NCBI GenBank assembly: GCA_937919825.1
Contig: CALFPA010000069.1
Location: 62,001 to 126,000, forward strand
Origin: an uncultured Spartobacteria bacterium
GTDB lineage: Bacteria; Verrucomicrobiota; Verrucomicrobiia; Chthoniobacterales; Terrimicrobiaceae
Length of the DNA: 64,000 bases
Direction of reading: 5' to 3'
Below, in pieces: positions 13,552 to 16,514 of the stretch. How positions within the stretch are numbered: position 1 is the first letter of the stretch; each line of letters begins with the position of its first letter. A program made the position numbers and the translations under genes. The notes under the pieces were generated by a model that saw nothing but the letters and a program-made list of their open reading frames with translations, ran no database searches and was not told the origin of the DNA.

Positions 13552-14520
13552 ATGCTGGCTGTCCACGATGTCATCTCTCTCACAAGCGTTCGATTCCCTG
13601 CCTTTAACTCCGGAACTCCAACGGTTGAACCGCTAGAAAAAGGCGGCTCGGACCGCAAGTTCTACCGCATTCGCATGGGTGGGGACTCGATGATTTTCAT
13701 CAAGTATTCGAATCACAAAGAAGAGAACCGCCACTATGTCGCGATCGCGCGGTTCCTCTCTGCGGCGGGTGTTCCGGTGCCGGAGGTTTATCTCCATGAC
13801 GAGGCGGAGAGTTTGATTTGGATGCAGGACCTCGGGGAAGTCGATCTCTGGAGCCACCGCAAGGATCCCTGGCCTACCCGCCGCGCGCTTTATCAATCCA
13901 CGCTGGATGCGGTTTTCGCGATGCACCGGAATGCCACCTCGGCGGATGGGGTGGGGGAGTTGGAGCTTCAACGGGTTTTCGACGCCGACCTCTACCTCTG
14001 GGAGCAGAGCTACTTTTTCGAGCACTGCCTTGGAAATTTTTTCAAAATAGATACCCGGGAGTTGTCTTCGCTGCCGGCGCTGCGAGCGGCGGCCGAGCGT
14101 TTGGCTTCGCTTCCTCGCGTATTGGTCCACCGCGATTTCCAATCGCAAAATGTGATGATCCGCGAGGGGTCTGCTTGGTTGATCGACTTTCAAGGGATGC
14201 GCTTCGGGCTCGCCCAATACGACCTGGCCTCGCTGCTCTACGACCCGTATGTCTCGCTCCACGATGGTGAGCGCCGGGAGCTTTTGGATTATTACAAATC
14301 CCTCTGCGGCGGCGTGTCTGCCGACTTCGACGAAATTTTCCGCTGGTGCGCGCTTCAGCGATTGATGCAGGCGCTCGGCGCCTATGGATTTTTGGGTCTG
14401 CAAAAAGGCCGCTCCGAATTTCTCACTTATGTGCCGCAGGCCCTTCGCTCGCTTCGCAAGGTTGCTTCCGGCCTTGATGGGCTCGACCCGCTGATGCAAA
14501 CACTGGAGGAACTCACATGA
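13552..14520 (+). CDS. APH-fold sugar/small-molecule kinase next to glgE
   Basis: 322 residues of the aminoglycoside phosphotransferase fold. An N-lobe with GGSDRKFYRI (nucleotide-loop-like) leads to the catalytic VHRDFQSQNVM (Brenner HxD) near residue 193 and IDFQGMRFGLAQYDLASLLYDPY (metal-binding D) near 210. Best general resemblance is to AmgK-like N-acetylmuramate/GlcNAc-1-kinases. However it overlaps glgE by ATGA, and the GlgE pathway needs maltose-1-phosphate, so a maltose kinase role is possible (inference). The ATG at 13552 is preferred to a TTG at 13510. Confidence 0.75.
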   Translation: MLAVHDVISLTSVRFPAFNSGTPTVEPLEKGGSDRKFYRIRMGGDSMIFIKYSNHKEENRHYVAIARFLSAAGVPVPEVYLHDEAESLIWMQDLGEVDLWSHRKDPWPTRRALYQSTLDAVFAMHRNATSADGVGELELQRVFDADLYLWEQSYFFEHCLGNFFKIDTRELSSLPALRAAAERLASLPRVLVHRDFQSQNVMIREGSAWLIDFQGMRFGLAQYDLASLLYDPYVSLHDGERRELLDYYKSLCGGVSADFDEIFRWCALQRLMQALGAYGFLGLQKGRSEFLTYVPQALRSLRKVASGLDGLDPLMQTLEELT

Positions 14521-16514
14521 CCAAAAGCCCCGAAACTGTCGTCATCCGCCGCATCACCCCCTCGCTCGACAACGCACGGTTCGCCATCAAGCGTCCCGTC
14601 GGCGGCACGCTCCAAGTCGAGGCCGATATTTTTAAGGATGGGCACGACGAAGTCGCGGCTCTCTTAAAATGGCGTCGCGTCGGCGAGTCTGCCTGGAATG
14701 AAACCCCGATGCGTCCTTTGCTCAATGACCGCTGGGCCGGGGAGTTTTTGGTCGCCAGCGCGGGAGCCTGGGAGTTCACGATCGAGGCCTGGGGCGATGT
14801 GTTTTTCTCCTGGCAGCACGAATTGGAGAAAAAATTCGCCGCTGGGTTGCGTGAATTGCAAAGCGAGATTTTGGAAGGCGCGGGCTTCATCGAGATCGCG
14901 GCGAAGCAGGCTGGCAAAGGCGGCGACGGCGAGGCTCTAAAAAAGTTCGCCAAGGAAATGCGCGCCGCCGATCCGGAGAAAGCCCACGCCCTCGCGCACG
15001 ACCCGAATCTTTGCGCGTTGATGGTGATTCACGCCGATCGCTCGATTTCCACAACGGCCGAGCCGTTTCATCCCGTGTGGGTGGACCGCGAACGGGCGAC
15101 TTTTGCGGCCTGGTATGAATTTTTTCCGCGTTCTGCTGAGGGGAAACCCGACACGGGCTCGACCTTCCGCGATTGCCTTGGCCGCATCGATGACGCCAAA
15201 GCGATGGGGTTTGATGTGATTTATTTCCCTCCGATCCATCCGATCGGCGAATCAAACCGCAAGGGGCGCAACAACTCCACGACCTGCCAACCCGGAGAGC
15301 CCGGTGTGCCCTATGCGATCGGCAACCGTCGCCAGGGAGTCAACGGCGGTGGACACAAGGATGTCGCGCCGGAACTCGGCACGCTCGAGGATTTCGACTG
15401 GCTCGTCGGCCAAATCCAAAAGCGAGGCCTAGAGATCGCGCTCGACTTTGCGATCAATTGCTCGCCCGACCATCCGTATGTCCATGAGCATCCCGAGTGG
15501 TTTTTCAAGCGTCCTGACGGCTCGATCAAGTATGCCGAGAACCCACCGAAAAAATACGAGGATGTCTATCCGCTGAATTTCCACAACGCCGACTGGCGTG
15601 CCCTTTGGGATGAGCTTCGCGATGTGATTCTCTTCTGGTGCGGCCATGGCGTAAAAATCTTCCGCGTGGACAATCCCCACACAAAGCCCGTTGCGTTTTG
15701 GGAATGGGTCATCGCCGAGGTGAAGGCGAAATACCCGGATACGGTTTTCCTGAGCGAGGCTTTCACAAAGCCCAAGATGATGCAGGAACTCGCGAAGGCC
15801 GGCTACACGCAGAGCTACACCTACTTCACTTGGCGGAACACGAAGTGGGAGCTCTCTGAATATCTCACCGAGCTGAACACACCGCCGATGCGCGATTTTT
15901 TCCGCCCGAATTTCTTTGCGAACACACCCGACATCCTGCCTGAGTTTTTGCAGCAGGGCGGTCGCCCCGCGTTTCTCATCCGCGCCCTGCTGGCGGCGAT
16001 GACTTCGCCCGTTTACGGCATCTACAGCGGCTTCGAGCTTTGCGAAAATACGCCCGTTCCTGGCAAGGAGGAGTATCTCGATTCCGAGAAATACCAGTTC
16101 AAAGGCCGTAACTGGAACGCGCCGGGAAACATCAAGGATTACATCACGAAGCTGAACGCCATTCGCGTCGGCAACCGCGCCTTACGCGGGTTCGACAACC
16201 TCCGGCTTCACACGGCTGAGAATGACCAAATCCTCTGCTTCTCGAAATCCACGCCGGCGCTGGACAATATCGTTTTCATCGCGGCCACGCTCGATCCGCG
16301 CCGCAATCAAAGCGCGTTTGTGCATGTGCCCCTCGAGGAATTCGGCATCGGGGCTGACGAGGATTATGCGATGGAGGATTTGCTCACGGGCGAGGTTTTC
16401 CATTGGCGAGGTTCCAGAAATTTCGTGGCGCTCGATCCTCAAAAACGCCCCGCGCATGTCTTCCGAGTGCGCCGTCCAATCGGTCGCGAAGAAGGCGTCG
16501 ATTTGTTCGCCTAA
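14517..16514 (+). CDS. glgE: Alpha-1,4-glucan:maltose-1-phosphate maltosyltransferase
   Basis: 665 residues, normal GlgE length. Adds maltose from alpha-maltose-1-phosphate to the non-reducing end of alpha-glucan. An N-terminal beta domain is followed by the GH13_3 barrel: FDVIYFPPIHPIG near 237, ALDFAINCSPDHPY near 310, nucleophile Asp385 in FRVDNPHTKP and acid/base Glu414 in LSEAFTKP. These are close to the D394/E423 positions of the Streptomyces enzyme. Coupled by ATGA overlap to an APH-fold kinase. No treS, glgB or glgM is in the window, so the source of maltose-1-phosphate is not shown. Confidence 0.94.
   Translation: MTKSPETVVIRRITPSLDNARFAIKRPVGGTLQVEADIFKDGHDEVAALLKWRRVGESAWNETPMRPLLNDRWAGEFLVASAGAWEFTIEAWGDVFFSWQHELEKKFAAGLRELQSEILEGAGFIEIAAKQAGKGGDGEALKKFAKEMRAADPEKAHALAHDPNLCALMVIHADRSISTTAEPFHPVWVDRERATFAAWYEFFPRSAEGKPDTGSTFRDCLGRIDDAKAMGFDVIYFPPIHPIGESNRKGRNNSTTCQPGEPGVPYAIGNRRQGVNGGGHKDVAPELGTLEDFDWLVGQIQKRGLEIALDFAINCSPDHPYVHEHPEWFFKRPDGSIKYAENPPKKYEDVYPLNFHNADWRALWDELRDVILFWCGHGVKIFRVDNPHTKPVAFWEWVIAEVKAKYPDTVFLSEAFTKPKMMQELAKAGYTQSYTYFTWRNTKWELSEYLTELNTPPMRDFFRPNFFANTPDILPEFLQQGGRPAFLIRALLAAMTSPVYGIYSGFELCENTPVPGKEEYLDSEKYQFKGRNWNAPGNIKDYITKLNAIRVGNRALRGFDNLRLHTAENDQILCFSKSTPALDNIVFIAATLDPRRNQSAFVHVPLEEFGIGADEDYAMEDLLTGEVFHWRGSRNFVALDPQKRPAHVFRVRRPIGREEGVDLFA

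Follow-up and report, generated by a model that had tools for sequence, protein, structure and literature searches.

An AmgK-like kinase gene overlapping glgE in a Spartobacteria genome is probably paired with a MurU-like nucleotidyltransferase, with GlgM as the probable supplier of GlgE

We analysed a 64,000-nucleotide stretch of DNA, here called the window, from an uncultured Spartobacteria bacterium (C69:62001-126000, where C69 is contig CALFPA010000069.1), in which the gene for an APH-fold kinase overlaps the start of glgE. We hold it highly probable that, taken together, GlgM supplies GlgE with maltose-1-phosphate and the kinase is paired with a MurU-like enzyme; the identity of the sugar that the kinase acts on is not part of this claim and is treated separately below. 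That the kinase is a new maltose kinase is very unlikely; it is probably a sugar 1-kinase, and the AmgK-like reading is supported for both its class and its partner. The junction would then be a place where two unrelated pathways adjoin through inherited gene order.

Results

The kinase gene and its overlap with glgE

The initial annotation had described a 322-residue APH-fold kinase with intact HxD and D motifs whose gene overlaps glgE by ATGA, and this description was borne out. The open reading frame is matched by the Pfam APH model (PF01636, 9.5e-24), its H193-R194-D195 and D212-F213 motifs are intact and invariant in 22 of 22 aligned sequences (the window's included), and four bases are common to both reading frames (Table 1). 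The glgE product scores above the cut-offs of PF11896 (175.9 bits) and PF21702 (95.5 bits) and aligns with Streptomyces coelicolor GlgE (3zss) at 632 bits over residues 11-655, nearly the full length. Its E414 aligns with the 3zss glutamate that is alanine in entry 5cvs, and which we take to be the acid/base.

Table 1. Features at the kinase-glgE junction, in window coordinates
Feature	Position	Strand	Basis
APH-fold AmgK-like kinase, 322 codons	13552..14520	+	ATG 13552, TGA 14518-14520; Pfam, NCBIfam, alignment, model
ATGA stop/start overlap, possible translational coupling	14517..14520	+	ORF ends; NTGA kept in relatives
glgE, alpha-1,4-glucan:maltose-1-phosphate maltosyltransferase, 665 codons	14517..16514	+	ATG 14517; PF11896, PF21702, 3zss

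Junctions were surveyed at 15 of the 30 adjacent kinase-glgE pairs found in the class (see below), with the downstream start taken as the longest open reading frame start rather than a mapped start. At 12 of these 15 loci the kinase stop and glgE start form a one-base-offset NTGA overlap (10 ATGA, one GTGA and one TTGA), and the overlap therefore exceeds chance. The remaining three comprise one ATGA junction with an inserted reading frame in place of glgE and two junctions with longer overlaps.

A 281-codon reading frame sits exactly at the kinase/glgE junction in some close relatives (L108:5964-6854; L035:653-1498, in genome G204). At L108 a direct repeat of 49 bp (98% identity) flanks the insert and extends across the stop/start overlap, and both host genes stay whole. 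No Pfam model matches the inserted frame at E up to 1, and a relative 69% identical to it is found on two viral contigs.

Family and structure of the kinase

The remark in the initial annotation that the kinase sequence resembles AmgK is right, since the top NCBIfam model is AmgK NF045759, although the score, 92.5 bits, is far short of the cut-off (550). The second AmgK equivalog model gives 47.8 bits against a cut-off of 500 and, because both equivalog cut-offs are missed, we name the protein AmgK-like rather than AmgK. The structure closest to its AlphaFold2 model (mean pLDDT 95.1) is 3csv, titled a putative aminoglycoside phosphotransferase (Foldseek 7.8e-15; VIA-align Z 29.5, rmsd 2.7 over 301 residues, the next row having Z 23.8). 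The aligned fragment of 3csv (273 residues) scores 238 bits against AmgK NF045698, whose cut-off is 500, which makes 3csv AmgK-type by sequence. At E up to 10 the kinase was matched by neither the Mak cap model PF18085 nor, among its 13 NCBIfam matches, the maltokinase model TIGR02457. Maltokinase entries were present neither among the 50 Foldseek matches listed nor in the VIA-align comparison, an absence without bearing on the maltokinase reading.

Another APH-fold kinase, about 374 residues long, is encoded elsewhere in the window's genome (G000:C99:498-1220; L003:414-1535); it has no NCBIfam match at 1e-5 and directly precedes a gene for an NAD-dependent epimerase (PF01370). Its N-terminus is, we presume, reminiscent of N-acetylhexosamine 1-kinases.

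Co-occurrence with a MurU-like partner across the class

We drew 286 genomes, many of them drafts, from the class and searched this same set with five queries and later with PF03702. The thresholds were 1e-15 (kinase), 1e-5 (PF11896), 1e-25 (MurU-like protein), 1e-95 (TIGR02149), 1e-4 (PF18085) and 1e-15 (PF03702). Genes were called adjacent when less than 1 kb separated their match ends; for G173 the larger of two GlgE pieces was entered, and for G191 one of two Mak-cap matches. Co-occurrence counts and Fisher p-values treat genomes as independent, ignoring kinship.

The kinase was detected in 132 of the 286 genomes and the MurU-like protein in 131. Both occur in 129 genomes and neither in 152, with the kinase alone in three (G034, G043 and G260, which are 75 to 85% complete) and the MurU-like protein alone in two (G070 and G182, 96 to 97% complete). 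Their genes lie less than 1 kb apart in 55 genomes, 52 of these with both on one strand. The other 74 of the 129 have them over 1 kb from each other or on separate contigs, so their co-occurrence is not merely linkage. Three genomes (G251, G098 and G203) carry the two as one-frame fusions with the MurU-like part first (559, 564 and 577 residues; L194, L195 and L196). All three fusions match both MurU and AmgK models below cut-off; two score higher to the mannose-1-phosphate guanylyltransferase model and one favours MurU. The MurU-like protein of the window's genome, encoded at C52:39204-40181 on another contig, scores 131.8 bits to MurU (cut-off 250) and 138.2 bits to mannose-1-phosphate guanylyltransferase (cut-off 440). 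A further set of loci (the 80 best out of 502 relatives), labelled mostly Verrucomicrobia, Spartobacteria or Chthoniobacter and possibly overlapping in species with the 286 genomes, has a MurU-like gene just upstream of the kinase at 67 loci and none at 12, with one locus cut off; glgE lies downstream at 27 of these 80 loci, at 24 of them within 600 bases.

GlgE was detected in 86 of the 286 genomes and the kinase in 64 of those 86. GlgE is absent from 68 of the 132 genomes with the kinase, and the kinase from 22 of the 86 with GlgE.

Gene order and a split cluster

Of the 64 genomes with both kinase and glgE, 30 have the kinase immediately before glgE and on its strand; in none is it downstream of glgE within 1 kb. 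Within these 30 pairs, murU immediately precedes the kinase in 20, lies 4.2 kb upstream in one and is on another contig in nine, an arrangement that in drafts can hide a contig break. The three relatives that were fully opened (G094, G242 and G086) share the order mutL, GNAT, murU, kinase, glgE, with mutL and GNAT assigned by Pfam and one conserved divergent gene preceding mutL. In the window's genome the divergent gene, mutL, GNAT and murU follow one another in this same order on contig C52, and are then followed by the gene for ribosomal protein L2. Because mutL-GNAT-murU lies on C52 and kinase-glgE on C69, the window holds one half of a split cluster and, as both contigs run on, the split is not a contig break. 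We infer that the joined order, mutL-GNAT-murU-kinase-glgE, is ancestral.

That the kinase stays with glgE and that the NTGA is kept could reflect selection for coupling, or could mean that overlapping genes are hard to separate. The nine pairs in which the kinase is still beside glgE with murU on another contig could point to a tie to glgE. Two genomes of 0.9 Mb, G017 and G026, retain GlgE, GlgM and a Mak-cap match but show no match to the kinase or the MurU-like protein. In the 19 kb of G017 that were opened, glgE comes after the divergent gene, and mutL, GNAT, murU and the kinase have left no trace.

Maltose-1-phosphate supply

The genome that holds the window is a 2.71-Mb draft of 143 contigs and is 99% complete. 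The initial annotation had noted that no maltokinase (Mak) or GlgM is visible, which is true within the window, but a GlgM-family gene lies on the same contig at C69:5662-6855, about 55 kb left of the window and about 70 kb from glgE. It scores 523 bits against TIGR02149 (cut-off 302), the sole one of 17 matches above the cut-off; for the weaker TIGR02149 stretches on five contigs, the starts of their reading frames were looked at. Its best PDB match is the Mycobacterium smegmatis alpha-maltose-1-phosphate synthase 6TVP (7e-108), with identity at 146 of the 293 residue pairs compared, and it conserves eight of the eight ADP-glucose donor-site residues named in the excerpted text of the GlgM structure paper (PMC7137382). 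GlgC, GlgB and GlgX are all encoded in the same genome above their cut-offs.

The genome-wide search for treS, mak and glgM that the initial annotation had proposed yielded GlgM and neither of the other two. The Mak cap (PF18085) had no match in this genome at E up to 10, with the Corynebacterium glutamicum control detected, and a PF00128 search gave four GH13 genes, none of them TreS: GlgE, GlgB, GlgX and a 557-residue protein (G000:C91:20906-21589; L010:1273-2943). Of the standard routes that the annotation had set against a new maltokinase, GlgM is thus present elsewhere in the genome and Mak was not found. The 557-residue protein was considered as a TreS and rejected, its nearest model being sucrose phosphorylase (177 bits, cut-off 334) and its score to the TreS model 136 bits against a cut-off of 678; it could be a glucoside phosphorylase with a different specificity. 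Because GlgC, GlgM, GlgE and GlgB are all found and the GlgM donor residues are kept, the ordinary GlgC-GlgM-GlgE-GlgB route is encoded, and this gene content and these residues suggest that the route is functional.

GlgM was detected in 68 of the 286 genomes, 66 of them also with GlgE, whereas a 2024 review, in the portion covered, places GlgM mostly in Actinobacteria (PMC11046441). Since GT4-type GlgA homologues are described as coexisting with glgE in Gram-negative bacteria too, in an excerpt of earlier work (PMC4981310), finding GlgM here extends what was known and is not surprising. GlgM lies within 1 kb of GlgE in 11 other genomes, in 10 of these on the same strand with GlgM upstream, and this linkage indirectly favours glucose-1-phosphate, not glycogen, as the putative acceptor of GlgM. 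GlgM and a Mak-cap match occur together in 29 GlgE genomes, and two sources of maltose-1-phosphate therefore often coexist outside Actinobacteria.

GlgM was detected in 28 of the 30 genomes in which kinase and glgE adjoin. G086 and G242, both drafts, have kinase-glgE with no detected GlgM or Mak cap, and these absences are likely draft gaps because relatives in the same genera have GlgM (six of seven sampled in one genus, g11, and three of four in the other, g21). G007 was considered as a GlgE genome without a maltose-1-phosphate source and rejected: the gene after its glgE matches TIGR02457 at 290.7 bits (cut-off 375) and the Mak cap at 13.4 bits, and the cap can be weak in a real Mak.

AnmK and the sugar of the kinase

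AnmK (PF03702, E up to 1e-15) was detected in 18 of the 286 genomes, and in the E. coli and Caulobacter controls. No kinase genome out of the 132, the window's included, gave an AnmK match, and none of the 18 AnmK genomes carries the kinase or the MurU-like protein (AnmK versus kinase, Fisher p 9e-6 with genomes treated as independent). In Pseudomonas AnmK supplies MurNAc 6-phosphate to the AmgK-MurU route, in which the chemistry of AmgK is 1-phosphorylation, according to an excerpt of PMC5371407, and AnmK is part of the Caulobacter route in the part covered of PMC13046382. The absence of AnmK speaks against the simplest form of a cell-wall-sugar reading. MurNAc and/or GlcNAc nevertheless appear the most likely sugars of the kinase, a choice towards which we lean without firm confidence.

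Discussion

We propose that the kinase and glgE belong to separate pathways. Judging by gene content and conserved residues, GlgM would make maltose-1-phosphate from ADP-glucose, provided by GlgC, and glucose-1-phosphate; GlgE would take this maltose-1-phosphate and extend alpha-glucan, which GlgB would branch. The kinase would phosphorylate a free sugar, presumably at its anomeric hydroxyl, and the MurU-like nucleotidyltransferase would receive the resulting sugar 1-phosphate; the pairing itself is shown by co-occurrence, adjacency and fusion. After the cluster split, kinase and glgE would have stayed joined by their ATGA overlap, with mutL-GNAT-murU left on the other contig.

The initial annotation had offered the kinase as a possible new entry point to the GlgE pathway, a non-standard maltokinase. 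In full or as a secondary activity, the kinase would then convert free maltose to maltose-1-phosphate for GlgE, and translational coupling would match the two enzymes. Such a role would fit the NTGA overlap kept at 12 of 15 loci, the one-sided placement upstream of glgE in 30 of 64 genomes, the nine genomes in which the kinase remains with glgE and the MurU-like gene is on another contig, the 1-phosphorylating chemistry of AmgK (as excerpted from PMC5371407) and the two drafts, G086 and G242, that have no other detected source of maltose-1-phosphate. Against it stand a GlgM well above its cut-off and a GlgC in the same genome, GlgM in 28 of the 30 genomes with adjacent genes, a distribution in which the kinase occurs in 68 genomes without GlgE and is missing from 22 with it, the failure of the Mak cap and TIGR02457 to match the kinase at E up to 10, and two reduced genomes that keep glgE, glgM and a Mak cap without the kinase or the MurU-like gene. 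On gene content and distribution we reject the kinase as a maltokinase, a role we regard as very improbable. A dual role that includes maltose is likewise unlikely: we give little credence to a promiscuous anomeric kinase that makes a sugar 1-phosphate for the MurU-like protein and also maltose-1-phosphate where it is coupled to glgE, which, if true, would be a third entry point to the GlgE pathway beside GlgM and TreS-Mak.

The annotation's other suggestion, a cell-wall sugar kinase placed beside glgE by chance, fares better in part. The AmgK-like class and the MurU-like partner (129 genomes with both, 52 with adjacent genes on one strand, three fusions) agree with it; 'by chance' is too weak, because the gene order appears to have been inherited (murU-kinase-glgE runs uninterrupted in 20 of the 30 genomes), and the cell-wall sugar itself is conjectural, with the absence of AnmK against its simplest form. 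It is possible, if somewhat doubtful, that the pair keeps its partnership and salvages a different sugar, such as a hexose in place of MurNAc or GlcNAc, into an NDP-sugar; the likeness to AmgK-MurU would then end at fold and pairing. In favour of such a sugar, mannose-1-phosphate guanylyltransferase heads the NCBIfam models of the partner by 6 bits, both proteins miss their equivalog cut-offs, and AnmK and the kinase never occur together in the genomes sampled. Against it, the closest structure is AmgK-type by sequence and the best family of the kinase is AmgK; MurNAc might be released without an anhydro sugar, or GlcNAc might be the substrate. MurNAc and/or GlcNAc stay our preferred candidates.

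These results remove a tempting wrong annotation, that of a maltokinase by neighbourhood, and illustrate that an ATGA overlap can persist after the cluster accounting for it has come apart. They also raise a testable question about the identity of the sugar entering an AmgK-MurU-like pair where AnmK is not detected. Among the titles and beginnings of abstracts listed in our literature searches, none reports the kinase-glgE pair.

Compared with the GlgM-GlgE pathway of Mycobacterium, the window's genome likewise encodes GlgC, GlgM, GlgE and GlgB with the GlgM donor-site residues kept; it differs in that glgM lies some 70 kb from glgE and in that no TreS-Mak branch was detected. Like Mak/Pep2, the window's kinase is an APH-superfamily kinase that has been considered as a supplier of GlgE, but it lacks the N-terminal cap and is not matched by TIGR02457, no TreS was found in its genome, and it occurs in 68 genomes without GlgE. 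With AmgK it shares the APH fold and the HRD and DF catalytic motifs and, as in the AmgK-MurU systems of Pseudomonas and Caulobacter, an APH-fold kinase is tied to a nucleotidyltransferase, here MurU-like. Its best family and best structural match are both AmgK-type, yet it scores far below the equivalog cut-offs. It departs from those systems in that no AnmK was found in its genome, and in that murU, kinase and glgE are contiguous in 20 of 286 genomes and the kinase is fused to a MurU-like domain in three.
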